IMG/VR virus record: IMGVR_UViG_3300034072_000615
Coordinates: 1-36,158 of that record
Direction: 5' to 3' (one strand)
Length of the DNA stretch: 36,158 nt
From: a virus
Below, one piece after another: positions 3,235-34,679 of the stretch. Both the position numbers and the translations under genes were made by a program. Position 1 is the stretch's first letter; the number at the start of each line of letters is the position of its first letter. The notes beneath the pieces are model-generated. The model searched no databases. It was given only the letters and a program-made list of their open reading frames with translations, and was not told the DNA's origin.

Positions 3235-4197
3235 TCAGAACGGGATGTCTGAGTCGAAGTCATCATTGCCGCTAACAGGAACATTCTGAGCGGCTTTCTT
3301 ACCTGAGCCTTGCGATGGCTTAGCTTCACCTCCAGAAGCGCTCGCAGAGCTTCCTGTTGCGTTTGGCGAAGCATTCTCCAGAACAGCTTGCATCTTGCTA
3401 CCTTGGTAGTTTAATGCTTGCTTAATCTTCTTCACTAAATCACCACGTAACCACTTCACATCTTCTTCTGTAACAGTATCAAATGTAATGATACGTGCTT
3501 CATTGGACAGTGGTTTTACTTTTAAAGGAGCTTCATTACCTTCTTCATCTTCAATCAGAGGTACTTCAGAACAACCTTTGTAATTAACGTATGTGTTCTC
3601 ACCAGACGTATTCACAGCAACCTGAGCCATGAATGCTTTACCGGCTAACAACGACACATCCATGTTATCAGGACCACCGTCAATTACAGCCAATGTCTGC
3701 GTAGCTTTTGACAGCTTAGTCAACAGAGATTGAGCATGGAATGTAAATGGTTTATCTTCCAAACGCTTACCACTTTCATCATAGCTGTAACAACCAGCTA
3801 AGTCAACACCTTTTACATCACCTTTGAATGATGGATTTAACAGCAGACGATATGGTTGTTTACCAATAGCACCGCCATAATCTACCACATCATTCAGCAG
3901 GTCAGCTAAGACCGCTACTTGTTGAACAGGTTTACGTGGTGTATGTAGAATATCTTTACCGCCTACGTTCTCCACCCAACTACCTTTACCAAGTGATTCC
4001 ACTTGCTTAGGATCATTAGGATTGTAATCCTTAGTGGACGGTTCACGTTCTTGTGTACCTAAGTCAACAATCAATGACACTCGTGCTGGACGACTACCAC
4101 CTTTAACACCTTTGTTCAGTTCATTCCAATTCACTTTGGGAATGTTAGGATTCATTGGTGTTGCTTGTTGATTACTATTTGCTGGTTTAAAAGCCAT
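3235..4197 (-). CDS. Single-stranded DNA-binding protein (320 aa)
   Basis: The C-terminus ends SGNDDFDSDIPF, the acidic, Phe-terminated tail that SSBs use to recruit partners. It is preceded by a low-complexity Ser/Ala/Gly linker (about residues 276-305). The first 30 residues are polar and unstructured. The body has strands such as RPARVSLIVDLGTQ and FMAQVAVNTSGENTYVNYKG consistent with an OB-fold core. In T7-type replisomes the tail contacts polymerase and primase-helicase, both encoded just upstream here. Length and tail fit large-phage SSBs; a direct fold assignment is inference. The leader contains three hairpins (4248-4302), suggesting autoregulation. Confidence 0.75.
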   Translation of the reverse strand: MAFKPANSNQQATPMNPNIPKVNWNELNKGVKGGSRPARVSLIVDLGTQEREPSTKDYNPNDPKQVESLGKGSWVENVGGKDILHTPRKPVQQVAVLADLLNDVVDYGGAIGKQPYRLLLNPSFKGDVKGVDLAGCYSYDESGKRLEDKPFTFHAQSLLTKLSKATQTLAVIDGGPDNMDVSLLAGKAFMAQVAVNTSGENTYVNYKGCSEVPLIEDEEGNEAPLKVKPLSNEARIITFDTVTEEDVKWLRGDLVKKIKQALNYQGSKMQAVLENASPNATGSSASASGGEAKPSQGSGKKAAQNVPVSGNDDFDSDIPF

Positions 4198-4247: not shown

Positions 4248-4302
4248 GCTTCATATTGAAGCGTGATTCTACTTTCGTAGAATTCGTGTAAGGCTACGTA
4301 GC
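4248..4302. repeat. Three consecutive hairpins in the ssb leader
   Basis: GCTTCATATTGAAGC (4248-4262), ATTCTACTTTCGTAGAAT (4266-4283) and the 10-bp palindrome GCTACGTAGC (4293-4302) lie in a row between the HNH gene and ssb. The last contains the HNH stop codon. None is followed by a U-tract. They could be an mRNA structure for SSB translational control or a boundary left by HNH insertion. Confidence 0.6.
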
Positions 4303-4773
4303 TTTGAAATGGTTGTTGGTAAAATCTCCAGATCTTACTTCAAAAGATTTTCGCATACAGCAAGCTTCGAAAAAATCTTTAGTTATACCTATATAGTGTT
4401 TACCGCAACGCACTCTAAAGTAACCACAGCTTTTGTCAAAAGTTATTCCGGCAATGCCGATGTTTTTATTGTTAGAATAAGGTTTTGTGTTTCGACCATT
4501 CACAGATTTAGTAACTTCCCTGAGATTTGAAATCATGTTGTCTCTAGGGTTTCTATTTATGTGGTCAATCACACAATCAGGTAAAGGCCATCTTTTGTAA
4601 TACAGCGCAAAACACACCCTGTGATACTCATACCTTTTACCACCTAATCCAACCGTCTTACCTTCTTTACAATTACCACCGCATAACTTACCGTCACGAT
4701 ATAAGAAACCTTCGTCTGAGTCGTAGGTAAAAGTGTTTAAAGCTAAGCCTAGTGTATACTCTGTTTCTTTCAC
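4294..4773 (-). CDS. HNH homing endonuclease with AP2-like C-terminus (159 aa)
   Basis: The core runs YEYHRVCFALYYK (H51, R52), then DCVIDHINRNPRDN (D70, H71) and ISNLREVTKSVNGRN. This is the beta-beta-alpha metal finger of HNH nucleases. The C-terminal part (NIGIAGITFDKSCGYFRVRC, then KHYIGITKDFFEA) resembles the AP2 DNA-binding repeat common in free-standing phage homing endonucleases. It would nick or cut a cognate site in a related phage and spread itself. It lies between a 64-aa gene and ssb, and its stop codon is within a palindrome of the ssb leader, consistent with later insertion. Confidence 0.85.
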   Translation of the reverse strand: MKETEYTLGLALNTFTYDSDEGFLYRDGKLCGGNCKEGKTVGLGGKRYEYHRVCFALYYKRWPLPDCVIDHINRNPRDNMISNLREVTKSVNGRNTKPYSNNKNIGIAGITFDKSCGYFRVRCGKHYIGITKDFFEACCMRKSFEVRSGDFTNNHFKAT

Positions 4774-4805
4774 TAAAATACTCTCGTATTTGATAATGTT
4801 CTGCG

Positions 4806-5000
4806 TTAATTCTTACCAGCTACATCGTAGCGACTCAGCAGAGCATAAATCTTACTACGACCACTGATTGTCTTTTCAATATTTTTACGTTTCTTCTGAT
4901 AATCTGGAGCATTCGCAAAGCGATTATTACTCAAATCATCATAAAAATTCTCGATATAGATAAGCTGTTGTGTTAATTCAAATTGTTGTAAATCTTGCAT
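4806..5000 (-). CDS. Hypothetical helical protein (64 aa)
   Basis: A short, charged, probably all-helical protein (QQFELTQQLIYIENFYDDL, then a basic DYQKKRKNIEKTISGRSK stretch). No family recognised. A GGAGAAAAC ribosome site precedes the ATG. It lies 10 bp after the membrane protein gene at 5011-5229 and was probably directly upstream of ssb before the HNH gene entered. Confidence 0.55.
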   Translation of the reverse strand: MQDLQQFELTQQLIYIENFYDDLSNNRFANAPDYQKKRKNIEKTISGRSKIYALLSRYDVAGKN

Positions 5001-5010
5001 TGTTTTCTCC

Positions 5011-5229
5011 TTAATTACCTACTGAAATGTCACGAAGCTGTTCACGTAAAAACCAACCCTTATCTGTCTTCACATAACAACCATCAAAGATTTTATACTT
5101 GGTTTGCATACCCGTCATATCTTCATAGTTGGCACACTTATATTCTTTTACGATCCAACTACCAAACACAATAATCAGCAATACAAACAAAGTCAACACC
5201 AATTCAACATTACCTTTTTGCTTACGCAT
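5011..5229 (-). CDS. Small membrane-anchored protein (72 aa)
   Basis: Residues 9-27 (VELVLTLFVLLIIVFGSWIV) form one transmembrane helix after a basic start (MRKQKGN), predicting the C-terminus outside. The exported part holds two cysteines (YKCANYEDMTGMQTKYKIFD, then GCYVK) that could form a disulfide in the periplasm. I recall similar 'C..YE..TG...KY...GCYVK' small proteins in other phages, but not a function. It has a GGAGAGAAA site. Confidence 0.65.
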   Translation of the reverse strand: MRKQKGNVELVLTLFVLLIIVFGSWIVKEYKCANYEDMTGMQTKYKIFDGCYVKTDKGWFLREQLRDISVGN

Positions 5230-5247
5230 TCCATTTCTCTCCTTTAA

Positions 5248-5457
5248 CTAAGCAATTTCATCATAAACACCAAAGTTGTCATCTTTACCAACTTCGACAC
5301 TAAACCAACCATAACACTCATAACATTCTTCTTCATGTACTTCACCAACGTCGGAATTCGGTACTACAAAATCTTCCACCGGTAAAGGCTCACCTGCTGG
5401 ATGTTTTCCACAGAAAGGGCAAAACAAGATGTCCCCGCGCTTGTATGACTTAATCAT
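5248..5457 (-). CDS. Zinc-ribbon protein (69 aa)
   Basis: CPFCGKHPAG (C13, C16) and ECYECYGW (two more cysteines near residue 45) form a CxxC...CxxC zinc ribbon. The rest is acidic. Such small ribbons occur in many phages and may bind nucleic acid or host proteins. It is the first gene after the promoter at 5487-5514, so it heads the ssb-containing transcript. Confidence 0.7.
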   Translation of the reverse strand: MIKSYKRGDILFCPFCGKHPAGEPLPVEDFVVPNSDVGEVHEEECYECYGWFSVEVGKDDNFGVYDEIA

Positions 5458-5475
5458 CGTTTCTCTCCTTTGTTA

Positions 5476-5514
5476 AACGTGCAGAAATTATAGCACGTTA
5501 TTCTGTTGTGTCAA
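5476..5514 (-). promoter_or_regulatory. Consensus sigma70 promoter with -10 in an inverted-repeat loop
   Basis: On the minus strand TTGACA (5514-5509), 16 bp, TATAAT (5492-5487): both boxes are perfect. AACGTGC (5499-5493) and GCACGTT (5482-5476) flank the -10 as a 7-bp inverted repeat. The -35 lies inside the end of the HNH gene. It drives the zinc-ribbon, 72-aa, 64-aa, HNH and ssb genes. Confidence 0.8.
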
Positions 5515-6136
5515 CATCTTCTTGTGAAGAATTTTTAATTTTGTCGAGCCTTAAAGACATTTCTAACTGTCCAGCAGTAACATCCTCGCACAACTCTTGC
5601 ATGAAGTCAACCAGTTCTGCATTACTTCTACCATTAAATACAGAAGATATTGTAGTTCTTGGTAGCTTGAAACTTTGAGCTATCTCATTAACCCCGTAGC
5701 CAGTCTTCCTCATTACAACAGACCTACATCTTTGCGTATCTGTAAGCTGATTAGTCCTTCCTCTTTTCTTAGCATTGATCCTGCCATTGATAATACCATG
5801 TGCTGTATTCTCTTTTGCCGTCACCCACTCTAAATTCTCTACACAGTTGTTAGACTTGTCGTGATCGATGTGGTTAACAAACTTTTTATTGTCTGGATTA
5901 GGTATAAAATGCTCTGCAACAAGCCTGTGAATGTATCGGCATGAATTTAAACCTCTGCGCCCTTTTACATAAACACAGCAATTCTTATACCCTGCTCCGT
6001 TGTCAAGTATTGTAGCAAATCTACGCATACTTACTACATACACTCTACCTTTATTACTGACAAAGTAATTTTCTAGCGTACCTTCTATGGGAAGGAATAC
6101 TTCATCATTTTCTACTAAATCTTCTGGAACACTCAT
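5498..6136 (-). CDS. NUMOD4-HNH homing endonuclease with C-terminal HTH (212 aa)
   Basis: Residues 12-50 (VFLPIEGTLENYFVSNKGRV) match NUMOD4, the DNA-recognition module of HNH homing enzymes. An HNH core follows: CRYIHRLVAEHF (H70), FVNHIDHDKSNNCVENLEWV (H89, D91, N101) and N110. Residues about 130-185 (LTDTQRCRSVVMRKTGYGVN, EIAQSFKLPRTTISSVFNGR) form a helix-turn-helix like NUMOD1/resolvase-type modules. It is inserted between the DNA polymerase gene (13 bp upstream) and the zinc-ribbon gene, and its 3' end carries the promoter that restores transcription of the genes beyond. Confidence 0.88.
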   Translation of the reverse strand: MSVPEDLVENDEVFLPIEGTLENYFVSNKGRVYVVSMRRFATILDNGAGYKNCCVYVKGRRGLNSCRYIHRLVAEHFIPNPDNKKFVNHIDHDKSNNCVENLEWVTAKENTAHGIINGRINAKKRGRTNQLTDTQRCRSVVMRKTGYGVNEIAQSFKLPRTTISSVFNGRSNAELVDFMQELCEDVTAGQLEMSLRLDKIKNSSQEDVDTTE

Positions 6137-8270: not shown

Positions 8271-10049
8271 TTAAAACTCCACAGTCTGTTTTGCACACCA
8301 GTCTTCATAATCATATAACTTGTGTGTCTTATTATCATAGTAATACTTACCAGCAAACGGACTTGTATGTCCTGTCCAGCGACACTTGGACATTTTCATA
8401 ACTGTTGTGTTACGTTCAAGTTCATCCTCTGCTTCTTTGTTTCTCGTAAAGATAAGATTACAAGCACCACTTTTGAAAATGGTCGAACTTCCACTGAAGT
8501 CTTCTTCATGCAGGTCTGCACCAGCAGAGTTCGCTTTTTGCCCTCCACCAGACTTACGCACATGATTTACGTTTACGAAAGTAACACCGTATGTTTTAAT
8601 CATACCTTTCATCCACCGTAAGAATACTGCTTGGTCTTCATTAGAAAGACCATCCAAAATATCCTGCAACGGATCTAAGATAATCACCTTACAATCACAA
8701 CTGATGATTAAAGATTCAATGCACTGCTTTAAACTGTCTAACCCGCCATCACGATCTTCCATTAGATGAAAACGAGTATTACCAAAATCATCATAAGCCA
8801 GATTGTGTTCTTTTTCAAGATACCAGTCTTGCGACATGAGATCAAGCTTCTCATCCACTGTCTCAATCAGATCAATCTTTCTCTCTATATGTCGAGACAT
8901 CAACTTAATCCAGTATTGCCCAGCATCAGATTCTAAAGAAATAATACCGATCCGGTGTGGGCTGTTAAATAGCCAGTAGTATACCATCTCGTCAACAATG
9001 GTACTTTTTCCTGTGCCGCTGGCTGACCCCAGATTTACAATCCGTCCTAAAGGAATACCGCCAGCCATTAAAGCTTGTAATCTGTGCATGAAAGGCGGTA
9101 GTGGAATCTTTTCTACTGCTGCTTCACTTCTTGCCCGATCTGGCAGGTCTGCGCTGCTTAGAATACCATCTGGTGTATACTGCCTTGCCTTCCAGAAATC
9201 CTTAATGAAGTCTTCTTCTTTGCCATACTTAATGTATTCGTCAGCATCCTTGTAGCGCATTGTCATAACAAAAGCCTTACCTTTAGGCAGAACTTTACAA
9301 ATCTCCTCTGCGGCTGCTTTCCCTGCATCGTCAGAGTCCATACAAACAACAATCTTACTAAACTGACATAACCAAGAGTAATGATTTGCCAGTTGCTTAG
9401 CAGCACCTGACTCTCCAATTGTGGGTGCAACGACTGCTACAGGGTCATACTGTGTTTTACCTTTACGTTTCTGATCATCAACAAACATTTGATAGGCAGC
9501 TAATTGTTTAATCTCTCCGCCAACAATTAAAAGAATACCTGTTGAATCCTTGAACCGGAATTGACCAATTAAATCACAATCCTTACCTGTCACACCGATT
9601 GGTGCTGTAAAGTCTTTTGGAAACTTACGAGTCTTATAGCCAACTAACTTGCCATCTTTTGTTGTTGGAACATATTGCTTAATCGGTTCACCCGTTGTTT
9701 CATCATATTCATAACGAACCCTGAAGTAATGTGTAATTTCATCACGCAGACCTCGATAACCCTTACCTGAAGTCCCTGTGTAACTTTTAATATGCTCTTG
9801 TTCTGCTTCTGTAATTGGCTCTTTGGTACTCACTTCATACTCCTCTTGATCTTCATTACTTTCGATACCTCTACGTTCTTTCTCATCATCTGATAAAATA
9901 GTAAAACCACAGGAAAAACAACTACCACCTTTACCCTGACCATAAAAGTGAAAGTTGTTTCCTGATCTATCATTGCCTTTCTTTCGGCAACCATAACAAG
10001 GGTTTTTACCATTCTTCAGAGATGATTTCCAATCATCCCATGCACTCAA
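8271..10049 (-). CDS. T7 gp4-like primase-helicase, TTG start (592 aa)
   Basis: The zinc ribbon is C18/C21 and C44/C47. The TOPRIM region has LLIVGGEIKQL (172-183) and MDSDDAGK (237-244, D238/D240). A linker leads to a DnaB-type helicase with Walker A GSASGTGKS (341-349), Walker B VIILDP (D459) and NVNHVRK (493-499). It unwinds DNA 5'-3' and may make primers for the polymerase downstream. The start must be TTG at 10049: the codon before is TGA, the stop of the upstream gene overlaps it (TTGA), and no ATG lies ahead of the zinc ribbon. Oddity: T7's catalytic TOPRIM Glu157 aligns to glycine (G177), so priming activity is uncertain. Confidence 0.92.
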   Translation of the reverse strand: MSAWDDWKSSLKNGKNPCYGCRKKGNDRSGNNFHFYGQGKGGSCFSCGFTILSDDEKERRGIESNEDQEEYEVSTKEPITEAEQEHIKSYTGTSGKGYRGLRDEITHYFRVRYEYDETTGEPIKQYVPTTKDGKLVGYKTRKFPKDFTAPIGVTGKDCDLIGQFRFKDSTGILLIVGGEIKQLAAYQMFVDDQKRKGKTQYDPVAVVAPTIGESGAAKQLANHYSWLCQFSKIVVCMDSDDAGKAAAEEICKVLPKGKAFVMTMRYKDADEYIKYGKEEDFIKDFWKARQYTPDGILSSADLPDRARSEAAVEKIPLPPFMHRLQALMAGGIPLGRIVNLGSASGTGKSTIVDEMVYYWLFNSPHRIGIISLESDAGQYWIKLMSRHIERKIDLIETVDEKLDLMSQDWYLEKEHNLAYDDFGNTRFHLMEDRDGGLDSLKQCIESLIISCDCKVIILDPLQDILDGLSNEDQAVFLRWMKGMIKTYGVTFVNVNHVRKSGGGQKANSAGADLHEEDFSGSSTIFKSGACNLIFTRNKEAEDELERNTTVMKMSKCRWTGHTSPFAGKYYYDNKTHKLYDYEDWCAKQTVEF

Positions 10050-10342: not shown

Positions 10343-10532
10343 CAATAACCCCTTCAAATATTCCGGTAATACCCCACTTACCATAAGTGTAGACAACACC
10401 ATCAATTGATACATAGTCGTAGCCGTATGCACTGTAGTCTTTCCAGTCCATGTAGTCGTTTGGTGAGTCGTTTGGATCTACAGCCCACGATAAAGCGAGT
10501 TTCCATTCTTTAGTTATGTCTTTGATCTTCAT
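10332..10532 (-). CDS. Hypothetical protein (66 aa)
   Basis: A small acidic, Tyr/Trp-rich protein (DYMDWKDYSAYGYDYVSIDG). No family recognised. AAGGTGGTG precedes the ATG at a usable distance. It overlaps the next gene by 11 bp. Confidence 0.5.
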   Translation of the reverse strand: MKIKDITKEWKLALSWAVDPNDSPNDYMDWKDYSAYGYDYVSIDGVVYTYGKWGITGIFEGVIDDN

Positions 10533-10559
10533 TCTGCACCACCTTGCCGTATTTGCTCT

Positions 10560-15179: not shown

Positions 15180-16178
15180 ATGAAATTAGAAATAGGTTTT
15201 ACGAATACTAATAAACAAGGAATTGAATACTCTGTTATTGGAATGTCCGGTAAAGGTAACTACACTGTCAAGTTTACAGACGGAACAATCAGGGAAGATA
15301 TTCCAAAACACAGAATTATCGAAGGAAACGTTAAACTGAAACAGTACAGGTCTTCAGAAGAAGTTTCTGTGAACATGGGAGATAGGTTTGGAAAACTGGT
15401 GGTTGTAGGGTTAGAAAATCCAGTAAGACCTACAATGATGTGCGACTGTGGCAATTTATTCAATCCAGACAGATCTCAACTTTCTCTTGGGATGAAAACA
15501 AGTTGTGGATGTGTACCATCAAGTAAATCATCGAATAAGTTCTGGAAACGATTTACTGATGTTATTCAAAATTGGAATGGTTCTACAGATAACCCTGAAG
15601 TGATGAAACTGCCTGTTATGGAATTCAGAAAAGGAAGCACAGAGATAATTGGAGTATGCGGAGAAACATTAGTTGACAAGGATTTCTATGAATACTGGAT
15701 AGACTACCCTTTTATTGTAGATGAAAACGACTACGTTTCTCTATGTGCAAACAAATATGTATATGCAAAAATTAAAGGGTCTACCCAGAGTCTCAATGAA
15801 AGACGGGGTTATCGTTTACATCATCTAGTATTTGGTTGTACTAATTTTTCAAATTATGTTATAGACCATATAGACGGAAACCCACTGAATAATGTAAGAT
15901 TTAACCTAAGACTGGCAACAACTTGGGAAAATAGTGTTAATTCTGCTAAAACAAAAACCCGTACAGTATCGAAGTACAAAGGAGTGATTTTTGATAAGAG
16001 TAGACCGAAACCAAAGAAAGCGTCATGGAAACCTTGGAAAGCTATAATCAGGGTAGGTAATAGATCATTTGTGAAGTTATGCGAAACAGAAAAAGAAGCT
16101 GCGTTAGCATATAATGAATTAGCACTGAAACATCATGGAGAATTTGCGAGGTTAAATATTGTTGATGGGGGTGAGTAA
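15180..16178 (+). CDS. HNH-AP2 homing endonuclease with N-terminal zinc motif (332 aa)
   Basis: Residues 15-50 resemble an SH3-like module (YSVIGMSGKGNYTVKFTDGT). C88/C90 and C109/C111 (CDC...CGC) form a likely zinc site. The HNH core is YRLHHLVFG (H214/H215), VIDHIDGNPLNNVRFNLRLA (D229, H230) and N251. An AP2 domain fills about 264-327 (SKYKGVIFDKS..WKAIIRVGN..EKEAALAYNELA). It is longer than usual for the family because of the N-terminal modules. It lies after a terminator with its own GAGGAAAA site, as expected for a mobile gene. No host gene is visibly split. Confidence 0.88.
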   Translation: MKLEIGFTNTNKQGIEYSVIGMSGKGNYTVKFTDGTIREDIPKHRIIEGNVKLKQYRSSEEVSVNMGDRFGKLVVVGLENPVRPTMMCDCGNLFNPDRSQLSLGMKTSCGCVPSSKSSNKFWKRFTDVIQNWNGSTDNPEVMKLPVMEFRKGSTEIIGVCGETLVDKDFYEYWIDYPFIVDENDYVSLCANKYVYAKIKGSTQSLNERRGYRLHHLVFGCTNFSNYVIDHIDGNPLNNVRFNLRLATTWENSVNSAKTKTRTVSKYKGVIFDKSRPKPKKASWKPWKAIIRVGNRSFVKLCETEKEAALAYNELALKHHGEFARLNIVDGGE

Positions 16179-19952: not shown

Positions 19953-20156
19953 AGGGTGTATATTTTAGGTATGATATTTTTGTTGTTAAAATTAACAGGA
20001 AGGGACACTGATATTTGCACTAAGATTTTTACAAATAAAGTGTAATTAAATGAAGTATTTATAGTATTTTTACACAGATGTTTCATGTATAGAGTGGAAA
20101 CAGGAAGGATACAGGAAGATGTTACACTAAGAGTGGATATTTTGGTTATGATATTT
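19953..20156 (+). repeat. Direct repeat, 27 bp, two copies (19953-19979; 20130-20156)
   Basis: AGGGTGTATATTTTAGGTAT.. and AGAGTGGATATTTTGGTTAT.., both ending GATATTT, agree at 23 of 27 positions. Between them ACAGGAAGG and ACACTAAGA/GCACTAAGA also recur, suggesting a diverged tandem duplication. Confidence 0.5.
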
Positions 20157-20426
20157 GATTTGGTACTAGGTTAAATAGATGATATTTCATTGCAAATAAA
20201 ACTTGCAATATACTTAAAGTATGGTACACTATAAGGGTAGGAGATGTTCGTATATTGATTTTCTAAGTATAGAGACTCTTACTAAAGACCTTAATTTTTT
20301 TAGTTAGACAAATCATACACTTACAAGCAAAAAATCGTCCATTTTCTAAGTAGATTTAAGTTCCCTTAGAAACCCTCTATTTTGTTCTGATTTTTAGTCT
20401 AATAATAACCCAGAGAAACCTCCATG

Positions 20427-20461
20427 CTCACAACCCTCTGTCGAGGATTGCAGCCTGTGAG
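20427..20461 (+). promoter_or_regulatory. Structured leader of the ATPase gene
   Basis: CTCACA (20427-20432) pairs with TGTGAG (20456-20461). Inside, CCTC-TGTC-GAGG (20435-20446) forms a second hairpin. It is the most GC-rich part of the region and lies about 40 nt before the ribosome site. Confidence 0.4.
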
Positions 20462-20509
20462 GTGCGATTTGTTTTGATTTTGTTTGTGTAACCAAGAGAG
20501 GAGTTTGTG

Positions 20510-21814
20510 TTGAAAGTAAATGTTGTTGATGAGATCATGAGTAGTGGTAAATCCCACTGGATGATGTCTCAGATGAAAGCTTGGAAAGAAGAAGATAAGT
20601 TTGAGCAGTTTGTGTATCTATCTCCTTTGCTGTCTGAGGTTGGTGGTGAGGTGGTAGAAGGCAAGTATGCTGCTGGTAGAATACAAATTGCTTTACCTGA
20701 TATGTGTTTTAGTTACCCCATACCGCTAAGAGGGAGTAAAGCTACTCATATAAAAAGTTTGTTACACCAAGGAAAGAATATTAGTGCTACACATAACCTT
20801 TTTCTTGGTTTAGATAAGACAATAAAAGATACCCTCGGTTTGTATCGTAATGTATTGGTTATTGATGAGTGCTTAGATGCTTATCGTGTTTTTGATGGTA
20901 TCACTAAGAAGTCTTTACATTCTTTCATTAATGATAGAACATTCCTTGTTGATCCAGCTACAAACAAGATGGTGTATAACCACAATGAGCACCCACTCCC
21001 TACCAAGTGGGAATTCCTTACTCTTGCGGAGCTTTGTGATACTGGTTGTGTTTTCTATGTGAACGGTGATGCTGTCATATGGGAGTTTCCATATGAAGTC
21101 CTCTCTGCTTTTGATGAAGTGTGGGTACTTACTTATTTGTTTGAAGGAAGTTTTATGTCTGCTTGGTGTGAAATAAATGGTGTAGAGGTTGTCAAGCAGA
21201 AACCAATTCTAAACCGTTCTACTTCAGAAGTCAAGCAATATATCAAGGAATGTATTGATGTTGTTGAGACACGTTCTATGTTTAAAATAGAGAATTATTC
21301 CTACTCTCAGTCTTGGTGGCAAGATGATGCTGTTGAGGAAGTGGTAGATAAGATTAGGAAATGTTTGGAGTCGTGTATCAAATCAGCGAAAGCTAAGGCT
21401 AATGATATTCTTGTTGCTTGCCCTAAACCTAACTGGGAACACCCTCCTAGGAAAGAGGATGATACTAGAGAAGTTAAACGTAGACCTCTTGTTAAAGGGC
21501 AAGGATTCAGTAAAGCTACATGGCTATATTCTGATGCTAAAGCTACCAATGACTATGCAGACAAGACTTGTCTTGTGTATTTGCTTGGTAAGAACCCCAA
21601 CACGTTTATATATAATTTCTGCACAAGTAAAGGTGTCCATGTCAGTAGGGATTTGTACGCTCTTGCTTCATTCTTACAGTGGGTGTTTAGGGGTAGTGTC
21701 AGGAAGAAAGAAAAAATGCACCTCATTGTGCCATGTAAGCGAATGAGGGATCTATATAAACTTTGGTTAGAAACTGATGATGAAACATTAAAGGAGACAT
21801 TGAATGGAAAATAA
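20510..21814 (+). CDS. Phage SF2-helicase-like ATPase (434 aa)
   Basis: Walker A variant VVDEIMSSGKSHW (about 5-17), then FVYLSPLLSEV, motif Ia-like SATHNLFLGLD (near 92-102), Walker B VLVIDE (115-120) and a C-terminal FLQWVFRGSVRKKEKMHLIV resembling motif VI of SF2 enzymes. This fits a phage family of DEAD-like ATPases ('DE..GSGKS...YITP.L.EV...TTH.LF...IIDE') whose role is unproven but probably in replication. Start: GTG at 20507 and TTG at 20510 are adjacent. AGGAG (20499-20503) is 6 nt from TTG and 3 from GTG, so TTG is preferred. The C-terminal RMRDLYKLWLE is partly repeated at 22388-22450. Confidence 0.75.
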   Translation: MKVNVVDEIMSSGKSHWMMSQMKAWKEEDKFEQFVYLSPLLSEVGGEVVEGKYAAGRIQIALPDMCFSYPIPLRGSKATHIKSLLHQGKNISATHNLFLGLDKTIKDTLGLYRNVLVIDECLDAYRVFDGITKKSLHSFINDRTFLVDPATNKMVYNHNEHPLPTKWEFLTLAELCDTGCVFYVNGDAVIWEFPYEVLSAFDEVWVLTYLFEGSFMSAWCEINGVEVVKQKPILNRSTSEVKQYIKECIDVVETRSMFKIENYSYSQSWWQDDAVEEVVDKIRKCLESCIKSAKAKANDILVACPKPNWEHPPRKEDDTREVKRRPLVKGQGFSKATWLYSDAKATNDYADKTCLVYLLGKNPNTFIYNFCTSKGVHVSRDLYALASFLQWVFRGSVRKKEKMHLIVPCKRMRDLYKLWLETDDETLKETLNGK

Positions 21815-22391
21815 TCATATTGTGTATGCGGCTTTTGACGTTGATGGAAACTGTTTGTATGTTGGGGAAGGAAAACCGGATAGGTATAAACATATCACTT
21901 CTGGGATCAGTCATGTGTATGAAGCCAATCGCTGGCACTTCAGTAATAAGAAAGTTAAGGTCAATATTCTCCATGAAGGGTTATCTAAAGCTGAAGCTGT
22001 TTCTCTGGAGAAGGAAGAAATAGAGCGGTTGAAACCTGTATGGAATAAGAGTGACTGTAACGCAGCATTTCGGTCGGAGATGTATAATTTTGTCACTAAA
22101 GAGATTAAAGAGTTCTGTAAGAGTAGTAAACGATACTGGAATCGCAGAGACCATTGGATAACGATAGCAAGAGATATTTGTCGTATGATGTCTAGTCAAG
22201 GGTATACGACAATTACAAGAGGTCAGAGATGGTGTTCAGTGGACACCCCTGCTGGTATGATGTCTCACTTAGCTGATGATTCTGGGAAGTATTATCATGT
22301 GCTAAAAGCTGTGTTCGACATTTGGGCTGAAGGGAGTATCTATCATTTTAAATTGAAGAACTGGCCTGTATCAGACAAGGGAAGCCTATGA
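21804..22391 (+). CDS. GIY-YIG-type nuclease (195 aa)
   Basis: Residues 7-27, VYAAFDVDGNCLYVGEGKPD then R, match the GIY-(x)n-YIG core with catalytic Arg ('Y..F..DG..LYVG.G..R'). KAEAVSLEKEEIERLKPVWN supplies the usual glutamate helix and Asn. The C-terminal 100 residues (helical, WITIARDICRMMSSQG...) are probably the DNA-binding part. It overlaps the ATPase gene by 11 bp. Together with the ATPase-tail remnant directly after it, this suggests a homing nuclease inserted at the end of the ATPase gene. Confidence 0.7.
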   Translation: MENNHIVYAAFDVDGNCLYVGEGKPDRYKHITSGISHVYEANRWHFSNKKVKVNILHEGLSKAEAVSLEKEEIERLKPVWNKSDCNAAFRSEMYNFVTKEIKEFCKSSKRYWNRRDHWITIARDICRMMSSQGYTTITRGQRWCSVDTPAGMMSHLADDSGKYYHVLKAVFDIWAEGSIYHFKLKNWPVSDKGSL

Positions 22392-22450
22392 AGGTGTTGA
22401 TTCTGTCTGAGCGAATGAGAAATTTATTAATTAAGTGGTTGGAGGTTTAA
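22388..22450 (+). pseudogene. 20-codon remnant resembling the ATPase C-terminus
   Basis: MKVLILSERMRNLLIKWLEV aligns with HLIVPCKRMRDLYKLWLET at the end of the ATPase: RMR, L and WLE are shared, and the DNA shares AGCGAATGAG. The ATG overlaps the nuclease TGA and the frame stops just before the next GTG gene, whose GGAGG it contains. Best explained as the displaced original 3' end of the ATPase gene, possibly still translated. Confidence 0.55.
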
Positions 22451-23050
22451 GTGAATTTTGATGATGAAACAATACAGTGGTTCCTAAGTGAGTTGAGAGA
22501 AATCCCAGAAAAGTACCGTGTTGGTTGGGGTAGAGAACGTACTAAAGCAATTCATATTGACAAATTAAAAGAAATTCTCGAAATACCGAAGGATTCGTGG
22601 AACAATAAAGACAGAAAGTTAGTCTCTAAACTGTGTGATGACGTTTCTTATGTGAAAGAACAATCTTGTTCATATGAACTGAAATGGCCGTTTGTCTGGT
22701 TTACTTTCATTGGGGCTTTTAGAAAAACTAGAAAACCTAATCAAAGAGGGTCTGATTTCTTTAACGATAAATATTCTGGGAAAGGAAACGGAGTTGTGTA
22801 TTTATTGGGTTGCGGAGATTATTATAAGATAGGTTACTCTAAGAACATGCAAAGCAGATTATCCAGCATAAGAACCAGTAATCCTTTTGAGGTAGAATTG
22901 TTAGCTACTTTCGAATGTACAGATGGTAGATACTTAGATTTAGAAAAGCTTCTACATGAAAAATTCAAAGACAGTAAACATAAGCTAGAGTGGTTTAATA
23001 AAGATTTTACTGTGGAAGATTTCTTACAAGCGTGTAAAGACCTTACGTGA
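22451..23050 (+). CDS. T5orf172/GIY-YIG-like nuclease, GTG start (199 aa)
   Basis: Residues 114-195, GVVYLLGCGDYYKIGYSKNM then QSRLSSIRTSNPFEVELLAT, ending LEKLLHEKFKDSKHKLEWFN, match the T5orf172 branch of GIY-YIG nucleases (Y..YKIG.S.N...R). The first 110 residues are charged and helical. GGAGG lies 5 nt before the GTG at 22451. It follows the ATPase-tail remnant, so two nuclease genes adjoin the same target. It ends just before a strong terminator. Confidence 0.8.
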   Translation: MNFDDETIQWFLSELREIPEKYRVGWGRERTKAIHIDKLKEILEIPKDSWNNKDRKLVSKLCDDVSYVKEQSCSYELKWPFVWFTFIGAFRKTRKPNQRGSDFFNDKYSGKGNGVVYLLGCGDYYKIGYSKNMQSRLSSIRTSNPFEVELLATFECTDGRYLDLEKLLHEKFKDSKHKLEWFNKDFTVEDFLQACKDLT

Positions 23051-23057
23051 TTACAAC

Positions 23058-23080
23058 AAAGCCCCTTAACGGGGCTTTTT
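23058..23080. terminator. Bidirectional terminator between convergent operons
   Basis: AAAGCCCC (23058-23065), loop TTAAC, GGGGCTTT (23071-23078) and more T. Rightward it has a good U-tract; leftward TTTGTTG follows the stem. Confidence 0.85.
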
Positions 23081-23125
23081 CATAGCTGCATCAAATGTGC
23101 CTGTTTGTTCTTGTGTTGGTTTCAT
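23066..23125 (-). CDS. Micropeptide (19 aa)
   Basis: MKPTQEQTGTFDAAMKKPR, preceded by a strong GAGGAGAAAG. The last codons and stop lie inside the terminator stem. It is either a real micropeptide or the start of a gene cut short by the terminator element. Confidence 0.35.
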   Translation of the reverse strand: MKPTQEQTGTFDAAMKKPR

Positions 23126-23145
23126 TCTTTCTCCTCACAAATAAA

Positions 23146-32512: not shown

Positions 32513-32541
32513 ATATTATCAAACTAATTGTTTATTGTCAA
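32513..32541 (-). promoter_or_regulatory. Sigma70 promoter overlapping the ClpP-gene end and terminator
   Basis: Minus strand TTGACA (32541-32536), 17 bp, TAATAT (32518-32513). It serves the 93-aa, 293-aa and dNMP kinase genes. Confidence 0.7.
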
Positions 32542-33278
32542 TGTAATTTCGGAGGTTCTTCATCCTCGATTTCAATAATCTCAAATGTTTCGCCATTCTC
32601 TGCTACATCAACAATGATATTGCCTTGGATATAATCTATAAGTTGTGATTTAGTGAGCTTCTTCAAGATTGCTTCTGGTAGTTCATCAGCTTCCATTGAG
32701 GCTAAGAAGTCTTGTTCTACCTGCTTCATCATTTCTTGTTGTTTAGCTTGGACTGCTTTATCTCTGGCTTCCAACCGCCCAATAATCTCTTTTTCGTTTA
32801 ACCACAAATCTCCATTCTTTAATAGAACTTCGATTTCGTCTTGAGTCAAGAAACCTTCGTACACATCCTCATATAATGAACGCAACTGGGTCATTTCGTG
32901 TTCAATACTTTGCTTCTGCTGATACAAGGAGCCGAAACTACCGCCTTGTGCGTCGTGAGCCATAAATCCAACATGCTGCTGCACTTCCTGAGCTTCGCAG
33001 GATAGCCAAATGGCACCACCAGCAGAATAAGCCACGGAGGCTAGTACACCTACAGTCAGACCTTTACATTGTCGAACAGCATTGATGATAGCCAAACAAG
33101 TAACAAGACTGCCGCCAAAATTACTGATGATGATACGAACACAATCGTTCTCTCCAACACTAGCCAATAATTCGAATAGTTGGTGATAGTCTTGAGGATC
33201 GCTAACACTTTCGTCTAAGTAATAACGATACTCTGTCGCGACAGGGGTGACGTAAACATAATCTTTTTTCTCACTCAT
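32538..33278 (-). CDS. ClpP-like serine protease (S14 family), 246 aa
   Basis: IIISNFGGSLVTCLAIINAV matches the 'I.S.GG....A..I...I' turn of ClpP. The Ser-His-Asp triad is S85 (ASVAYSAGGAIWL), H108 (GFMAHDAQGG) and D157 (KNGDLWLNEKEIIG). The C-terminal 65 residues are helical and acidic and have no counterpart in cellular ClpP. Phage relatives are usually prohead proteases next to portal genes, or free proteases of unknown target. No capsid gene is nearby, so a host-directed or delayed role is possible. GGAGAGAA precedes the ATG. Confidence 0.85.
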   Translation of the reverse strand: MSEKKDYVYVTPVATEYRYYLDESVSDPQDYHQLFELLASVGENDCVRIIISNFGGSLVTCLAIINAVRQCKGLTVGVLASVAYSAGGAIWLSCEAQEVQQHVGFMAHDAQGGSFGSLYQQKQSIEHEMTQLRSLYEDVYEGFLTQDEIEVLLKNGDLWLNEKEIIGRLEARDKAVQAKQQEMMKQVEQDFLASMEADELPEAILKKLTKSQLIDYIQGNIIVDVAENGETFEIIEIEDEEPPKLH

Positions 33279-33307: not shown

Positions 33308-33913
33308 TTATCTGGAGCGTAGCAGACGCAAAGCGTCTGCTACGCGATGGTTAGTTTGTAAATCAGCAAGCTCAAGCGCTAAAGCGTGTTTTCTGCGTTG
33401 CCAAGCTTTATGTGCAGATAATGGGTCTGTGAAATACCCTAAGCAATCCATTTTATTTGTAAACGGGTTACTGCATCTCGACAAGTACATACCAACTCTT
33501 TTGTAAAAATACACACCGATTGGGTATTCACCTCGTTTATTTTTACCAGAAACCATAAAGCAATTAGTTTTCTTATCCAAAAATACACAAGTATCTTTGT
33601 TGTATATTTTATTTCCAAATACGAGCACATCTTTGTCCAACTGTTTTCCTTCCCAGTCTTGAGTTTCCATCCAAGCTTTAAAGTTAGAGAAATTTAACCA
33701 TTCATCAATAACAGTGCAGTCTGAGTAAGTTGGGTTATTTGCTTTATATTTTGAGCTGTAGCATCTCTTTAGCATCCCTGTCCATACCGTATGATGTGGA
33801 CATGCCCAAACAAGATGGCTTACCTTTTTCCCATTTACATAAGAATATGTTCTCTTTTGCTTCGCATAAGAGGTGTCGTCTACACCTACCCCATAAATAA
33901 GTTGTTTCGCCAT
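33308..33913 (-). CDS. Phage HNH-family homing endonuclease (201 aa)
   Basis: LVWACPHHTVWTGMLKRCYS, then PTYSDCTVIDEWLNFSNFKA WME and LDKDVLVFGNKIYNKDTCVF, is the well-known phage arrangement 'CP.Y..W..ML.RCYS.......PTY..C.V...W..FS.F..W.......LDKD.L..GN..YS...C.F'. An AP2-like segment follows (GVYFYKRVGMYLSRCSNPFT). The last 13 residues (VADALRLLRSR end) are encoded by a perfect 13-bp hairpin, an unusual C-terminus. It is inserted between the PhoH and ClpP-like genes, 1 bp after phoH. Confidence 0.88.
   Translation of the reverse strand: MAKQLIYGVGVDDTSYAKQKRTYSYVNGKKVSHLVWACPHHTVWTGMLKRCYSSKYKANNPTYSDCTVIDEWLNFSNFKAWMETQDWEGKQLDKDVLVFGNKIYNKDTCVFLDKKTNCFMVSGKNKRGEYPIGVYFYKRVGMYLSRCSNPFTNKMDCLGYFTDPLSAHKAWQRRKHALALELADLQTNHRVADALRLLRSR
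33317..33345. repeat. 13-bp-stem perfect hairpin in the 3' end of the HNH gene
   Basis: GCGTAGCAGACGC (33317-33329), loop AAA, GCGTCTGCTACGC (33333-33345). It is GC-rich against AT-rich surroundings and not followed by a U-tract on either strand. Confidence 0.85.
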
Positions 33914-33914
33914 A

Positions 33915-34679
33915 TTACATTAACCCTCTACGCCGGAAAGCAAGGATAGCTTCTCGCGTTGCTTTAGACCGAACAATATCACTTGGTCTATTGAAGTCCA
34001 CAAATGACCAAGGTAAGTTCACATCTTCTTCCTTCATCTTCAAGGCTAAAGACAATCCGTTTTCTTCCTTCAAATCTGTCTGAAGAATATCACCAGCAAA
34101 TACCATTGTTGCGTTTTCGCCTAAACGGGTTACTACTTTGACAAATTCCTTCACTGTAAGGTCTTCCGCTTCGTCGCAAATGATGTAGCAGTTCTTTAAG
34201 CTACGCCCTTTCACAACCTCTAACGGAATAAACTCGATAGCTCCTGATTCAATAGCCAACTCTGTTACATTACGACCAAGCTTCTCATACAAAGTATCAA
34301 GAATAGGCGCAAGCCAGTGCTTTGCTTTCTCTACCAAAGAACCACTGAAATACCCAAGAGATTTTGAACTTGATGTCGCAGGTCGAATCAAATAAATCTT
34401 GTCAATTTCACCTAAATACCACTTCTCTGCGGCTACACAAGTTGGGATGTAACTTTTCGATGATCCCGCGAAGCCAGTAGCTATCACAACAGGAGACTCC
34501 CAGCAGAATCTGATATATTCTGCTTGCAAGTCATTCATAGGTTTAACAGATTGAAACTTCTCTTTGCGTTCTTCTAAGTGTTTTGGGTCAATAGCTCGTT
34601 GACCACCTTCAGCCACTTTCTTAGCTCGTGTAACTTTACGTTCACGCACTTTACGACCACCACCATGCTCTAAAGTCAT
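33915..34679 (-). CDS. PhoH-like ATPase (254 aa)
   Basis: A basic N-terminus (residues 9-22), then VIATGFAGSSKSYIPTCVAA (P-loop 69-76), YLIRPATSSSKSLGYFSGSL, Walker B YIICDEAEDLT (D169, E170) and VFAGDILQTDL (D197, Q200). Order and spacing match the PhoH family, widespread in phages and probably RNA-related ATPases. The P-loop is unusual: GFAGSSKS has Ser where GKT/GKS normally has Gly. AAGGAG precedes the ATG. An HNH gene follows 1 bp later. Confidence 0.85.
   Translation of the reverse strand: MTLEHGGGRKVRERKVTRAKKVAEGGQRAIDPKHLEERKEKFQSVKPMNDLQAEYIRFCWESPVVIATGFAGSSKSYIPTCVAAEKWYLGEIDKIYLIRPATSSSKSLGYFSGSLVEKAKHWLAPILDTLYEKLGRNVTELAIESGAIEFIPLEVVKGRSLKNCYIICDEAEDLTVKEFVKVVTRLGENATMVFAGDILQTDLKEENGLSLALKMKEEDVNLPWSFVDFNRPSDIVRSKATREAILAFRRRGLM

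Follow-up and report, generated by a model that had tools for sequence, protein, structure and literature searches.

Behind the nuclease gene that follows a helicase-like ATPase gene in a viral contig lies a frame of 20 codons that resembles the end of that same ATPase, which raises the question of how a second ATPase end came to stand there. The window, by which we mean the whole analysed stretch of 36,158 nucleotides (IMGVR_UViG_3300034072_000615), carries on its plus strand the ATPase gene (20507..21814, with a GTG start codon), a gene for a GIY-YIG nuclease (21804..22391) that overlaps it by 11 nt, the 20-codon frame (22388-22450), and a gene for a MUG113/T5orf172 nuclease of the GIY-YIG superfamily (22451..23050, GTG start, E 9e-14). 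A preliminary description had proposed that foreign DNA bearing the GIY-YIG gene displaced an older 3' end of the ATPase gene and supplied a replacement C-terminus.

The window ATPase has a complete C-terminus of its own and matches phrog_2467 (E 1.2e-54), of which yonV of SPbeta is a member; we found no literature on yonV. The P-loop, the DE box and a motif-VI-like QxxxRxxxR are common to phrog_2467 proteins, which end in the pattern RxGxPI....SxRMRxLLxxWL. The predicted structure (pLDDT 88, pTM 0.87) matched ISWI, DinG and PriA folds in Foldseek, that is, SF2-type helicases, and this search returned no close family other than SF2-like helicases. In the model, the end under study contributes the final strand and helix to the core, and 26 residues taken from it cannot by themselves function as an ATPase. 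The yonV-like ATPase of Alicyclobacillus phage MMB025 (PV686781, 101637-102851) carries the annotation 'homing endonuclease', which is probably a misannotation.

A comparison that covered about 170 related loci included L014 (contig IMGVR_UViG_3300036770_001423), where the ATPase is whole and its C-terminus reads IRQGKPMKVLILSERMRNLLIKWLEV before the stop codon. The last 20 residues of this protein, FIWRGAIRQGKPMKVLILSERMRNLLIKWLEV, are identical to the product of the 20-codon frame. At the DNA level, window positions 22370-23135 and L014 positions 4635-5401 are 97.5% identical over 767 bp, through the MUG113/T5orf172 gene. Because this match starts at 22370, at the IRQGKP codons and thus 5' of the frame, the remnant of the displaced ATPase is longer than the frame, which forms its end part, and comprises 26 codons plus stop (22370..22450, plus strand). 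It differs from L014 at three positions, each synonymous in the ATPase frame, as would be expected if the tail was, until not long ago, part of a functional gene. When 72,970 fragments were searched with an HMM of ATPase tails from whose training the window had been left out, the frame was also recovered, with E=3.7e-11. Judged by these alignments, the resemblance first noticed in the preliminary description is homology. L014 is moreover what that description had predicted, namely a relative lacking this nuclease in which the intact C-terminus is joined directly to the upstream part of the gene, and it is the single relative that provides such empty-site evidence. The arrangement that would have spoken against the proposal, nuclease-free relatives whose ATPase ends like the present one and which carry the frame elsewhere, was not found.

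Three other accounts of the frame were rejected. Chance similarity to the ATPase end is ruled out by the L014 match, and a target-site duplication by the fact that the two ends represent distinct alleles, each belonging to its own clade. As for a conserved small protein, no case of the tail was seen beyond the scars described here, and in L014 it belongs to the ATPase. The DNA run AGCGAATGAG reported earlier for both ATPase ends is indeed present at 21738-21747 and 22410-22419. A longer common run of 13 nt, TGATGATGAAACA, stands near the window ATPase end (21775-21787) and at the MUG113 start (22459-22471). When pieces of that size were drawn from the window at random in 400 pairs, a common run of at least 10 nt occurred in 0.5% of the pairs and one of at least 13 nt in none. 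The copies of TGATGATGAAACA stand at unequal distances from the first common run, and this pair may be fortuitous, the vestige of an old recombination event, or a site for a nuclease.

How much of the locus is foreign can be read from the ATPase itself. The window and L014 proteins share about 29% of their residues along the whole length, and their genes match at the DNA level in short stretches only. In a tree of 52 ATPases, in which well-supported branches were starred, the window protein grouped with L012 and L002 (support 98, starred), and that of L014 with L016, L098, L004 and L023 (support 100, starred). In the nearest relative, L012 (42% identity), the ATPase is followed by a GIY-YIG gene that belongs to the same family and shows an identical 11-nt overlap (ATGGARAATAA). 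Since L012 already has this pair, the ATPase and GIY-YIG genes were probably joined before they were present in the window phage. In L012 there are two tandem GIY-YIG genes behind the ATPase (4774-6055), each of which starts with ATGGARAATAAGTATTATGTGTAT and overlaps the preceding gene by 11 nt.

The alignment of the window, L014 and a third record, L177, extended to about 20142 and resumed at 23078. Homology to both relatives ends at 20142..20143, as placed by the three-way alignment and by blastn edges, and window positions 20143-22369 have no counterpart in either, both flanks being matched. L177 holds a PIF1-like helicase gene and an HTH gene between the same edges, which implies that this locus exchanges helicase-type modules; an ATPase of the present kind was not found anywhere in the 93-kb L177 record. 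Because the window ATPase is about 29% identical to that of L014 throughout, belongs to another clade and has its GIY-YIG partner already in L012, the change is better described as replacement of a whole block than as the supply of a C-terminus. From the alignments, the ATPase and GIY-YIG block (about 20142-22369) appears to have replaced the resident ATPase except for its last 26 codons. The displacement of an old 3' end by foreign nuclease-bearing DNA is thus borne out by the L014 match from 22370 onwards, but the idea that only a C-terminus came in has to be given up. The two joins differ in kind: the left one lies in flanking DNA conserved among these phages, whereas the right one is non-homologous and interrupts the resident ATPase gene in helicase motif VI, which leaves 26 codons ahead of the stop. 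Composition does not set the block apart (GC 0.38-0.40, compared with 0.376 for the window). A donor, with the window-type ATPase and GIY-YIG gene but free of the scar, was sought, like further scars, by scanning viral contigs with the ATPase and the GIY-YIG protein singly, which returned only the window, and a DNA search of a phage collection with the ATPase block yielded no close relative.

The GIY-YIG protein matched PF01541 just below the curated cut-off (E 3.8e-4; 21.1 bits against 22.6). It has the catalytic domain with its conserved residues, the Tyr, Tyr/Gly, Arg, Glu and Asn positions being kept across 10 homologues, and its structural model resembled the UvrC GIY-YIG domain (probability 1.00, E 0.036), with low model quality past residue 133. 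The nuclease is encoded by a gene of its own, outside any intron or intein and beside a conserved ATPase gene whose frame is complete. It is present in some relatives and absent from others, scattered over the gene tree, and missing from the locus in L014 and L177. Because the L014 match starts at 22370, its final six codons and stop (22371-22391) derive from old ATPase DNA, read in a frame shifted by one base. We infer that this protein is a free-standing homing endonuclease which would cleave related ATPase genes that do not have it, within their 3' part.

On the other side of the tail, the MUG113 protein is 99% identical to its counterpart in L014, whose gene directly follows the intact ATPase. 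In both phages the last codons of the tail contain GGAGG (22441..22445 in the window, plus strand), 5 nt before the GTG codon, the likely Shine-Dalgarno sequence of the MUG113 gene. Since this motif sits in the tail, loss of the whole tail would probably silence MUG113, which may be a reason why the tail survived. A terminator-like hairpin, AGCCCCTTAACGGGGCTTTTT, is predicted 3' of the gene (23060..23080, plus strand). There follows, on the minus strand, the start of a gene encoding MKPTQEQTGTF... (23078..23135), which is intact in L177 and cut by the ATPase/MUG113 module in the window and L014. As aligned, this segment is the right edge of the variable locus, common to the window and L014.

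A second scar was found in the unrelated Vibrio phage VH-8. There, a homologous GIY-YIG gene stands behind an ATPase gene (8524-9816), and directly after the stop codon of the nuclease gene comes a tail encoding HLHLAVGIASKRMYNYFMEWLNE and a stop (10467-10538), which the ATPase-tail HMM recovered with E 6.8e-4. This tail is closest to the ATPase tails of Mithridates and L201, not to that of the adjacent ATPase, to which the Mithridates/L201 ATPases form a sister group. Compared with the window, the join is placed about 5-8 codons later, and no nuclease gene stands behind the tail. A DNA search with the tail, which is short, found VH-8 itself and no close DNA relative. GIY-YIG genes of the same family occur behind the ATPase in the window, VH-8, D'Alembert, L012, L016, L098, B9 and ET-ABTNL-9; tails are thus present in two of these eight distinct loci. 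A scan of 80 further ATPase loci revealed no third scar behind a nuclease gene.

The ATPase 3' end also hosts other nucleases, namely MUG113 in L014, a DUF723+T5orf172 protein in L005, HNH/AP2 in L200 and, at a distance of 90 nt, HNH_5 in L017. VH-8 has three ATPase genes, followed respectively by the GIY-YIG gene, a NUMOD1/endonuclease VII-like gene and a DUF723+T5orf172 gene. On the tree, nuclease presence behind the ATPase requires 10 changes, at least 9 of these on starred branches. GIY-YIG homologues are found at other sites as well, after nrdA in Y1-MI and on their own in L190 and L193. Because the types vary, the changes recur and homologues occur elsewhere, this is the pattern of selfish nucleases with a favoured landing place and not that of a fixed operon. 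Apart from this locus, the window carries an HNH-like gene (33308-33913, minus strand) cleanly behind PhoH (33915-34679) and before a ClpP-like gene (32538-33278). L014 lacks it, its PhoH gene being joined directly to the next gene, so that this is a second nuclease-gene polymorphism between the two phages, here free of any scar. Further HNH_3 genes of the window lie at 4294-4773 and 5498-6136 (both minus strand) and at 15180-16178 (plus strand), and the one at 5498-6136, which combines NUMOD4 with HNH_3, directly follows a family A DNA polymerase gene.

We consider an allele replacement resembling intronless homing, with a sloppy right junction and the ATPase and GIY-YIG block as the newcomer, to be the best explanation, with a probability of roughly 0.6. 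According to this explanation, the ancestor of the window phage was L014-like and had an L014-type ATPase gene followed by MUG113. A block of about 2.2 kb, consisting of a different ATPase and a GIY-YIG gene already paired in other phages, would then have replaced the resident ATPase. The GIY-YIG protein would have cut the 3' part of the resident allele, which lacked the nuclease gene, and the break would have been resected leftwards to the shared flank, which it must have reached because no usable similarity exists inside the ATPase gene. The donor ATPase and nuclease genes would subsequently have been copied in, and the right end joined sloppily, without homology, leaving the old tail. The putative cut would have lain near or upstream of motif VI, since the right end still begins there, and it is plausible that the tail marks the cut site. 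The tail could have been kept as the carrier of the MUG113 ribosome-binding site, or simply because the event is young. That the block is the newcomer agrees with both flanks and the right edge being of the L014/L177 type.

The single non-homologous join would fit either direction of transfer, and the tail might instead be a passenger, brought in by a MUG113 homing gene that moved from an L014-like phage into one already carrying the ATPase and GIY-YIG genes. The segment with tail, MUG113 and terminator (22370-23135) is indeed the best-conserved DNA between the window and L014, at 97.5%, and gene content changes at 23135. However, MUG113 identity at silent (four-fold) sites is 0.86, within the 0.59-0.97 of other shared genes; as this is ordinary for the two phages, no separate recent arrival of tail and MUG113 is needed. 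The right edge in the MKPTQEQT gene is also common to L014, as expected for a resident module, and the equivalent scar of VH-8 is not followed by a nuclease gene, so that we regard a passenger tail as unlikely. Rather less probable still is a process in two steps, in which the ATPase and GIY-YIG genes were inserted before the resident ATPase and the redundant gene was later mostly deleted, by chance as far as motif VI. SPbeta-like phages do contain tandem ATPases with a decaying upstream copy (L050, L055), but the window tail differs from L014 by synonymous changes only, no other remnant of the gene is left, and the VH-8 tail too directly abuts the nuclease gene. Tandem ATPase copies were observed in several SPbeta-like Bacillus phages (L050, L055, L246 and others), and in L082/L247 only the tail of the upstream copy is left (3399-3470).

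It could further be argued that the GIY-YIG protein is not selfish but works together with the ATPase, perhaps in repair or as an anti-host nuclease, and that ordinary recombination between phages exchanged the pair. In very different phages the two genes lie side by side and often overlap by 8-11 nt; yet the neighbour swaps between unrelated nuclease types and is missing behind most ATPases, and GIY-YIG homologues stand beside other genes, which makes such a partnership very improbable. An assembly artefact, in which the contig joins two related phages at 22370, deserves hardly any credence: the window is a metagenomic contig and its join non-homologous, but no shared k-mer that would make an assembler cross is visible at the join, and the same arrangement occurs in VH-8, whose deposited record is that of a complete phage genome.

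At tRNA genes and other att sites, some integrases rebuild the 3' end of the gene into which they insert; foreign DNA then lies behind that end, and the old end is displaced downstream. The window locus is similar in that foreign DNA lies behind an ATPase 3' end with the old end downstream, but it contains no integrase, its two ends are diverged alleles and not a short identical att core, and the whole upstream gene was swapped. Another parallel is offered by the free-standing endonucleases SegF, SegG and MobE of T4, which cut the allele without them, whereupon repair copies the nuclease gene together with its neighbourhood, so that the adjacent gene is carried along by co-conversion; for SegF, the overlap with the preceding gene is likewise 11 bp (PMC2988022). 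The window also has a free-standing GIY-YIG gene beside a replication-type gene, a SegF-like 11-bp overlap, and a neighbour inherited together with the nuclease gene, the ATPase having been swapped relative to L014 as a unit with it. Unlike in intronless homing of T4, the alleles diverge far too much to recombine homologously within the gene, the right side is non-homologous, and a piece of the displaced gene remains. For the window protein, cleavage and its target are predictions. In HEG islands (Barth, Dunham and Seed 2023), nuclease genes of interchangeable classes, T5orf172/MUG113 and DUF723 fusions among them, lie at the boundaries of exchanged core-gene blocks (PMC10448857). Such an island has nuclease genes on both sides of its core-gene cargo and high DNA identity between phages. 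In the window, however, the block amounts to one ATPase gene with no close DNA relative, nuclease genes stand only 3' of it, and the join is base-exact through a surviving tail, of which the passages of that account considered here describe no example (PMC10448857).

The kind of process is already known (PMC2988022; PMC10448857), but the two scars are new; a limited search of open-access papers found no earlier report of such remnants. New are the base-exact scar of a swap between alleles whose proteins are about 29% identical, the fact that such a scar recurred independently, and an ATPase 3' end that hosts several nuclease types. It is known that free-standing nuclease genes, when they home, exchange the genes beside them among close relatives, and the surviving tail extends this to alleles of almost no DNA similarity, with the join known to the base, and names the motif VI codons of a helicase-like ATPase as the candidate cut region. 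A tentative and, in our judgement, somewhat doubtful generalisation is that the motif VI region is a homing target common to several unrelated nuclease families, and that the ATPase and GIY-YIG cassette replaces even unalignable alleles by one homologous and one illegitimate event, regularly leaving 18-26 codons of the loser's tail. Altogether, because scars arose independently in two phages and unrelated nucleases of several types occur behind the same ATPase, our results suggest that selfish nucleases persistently target this little-studied ATPase family, to which yonV of SPbeta belongs.
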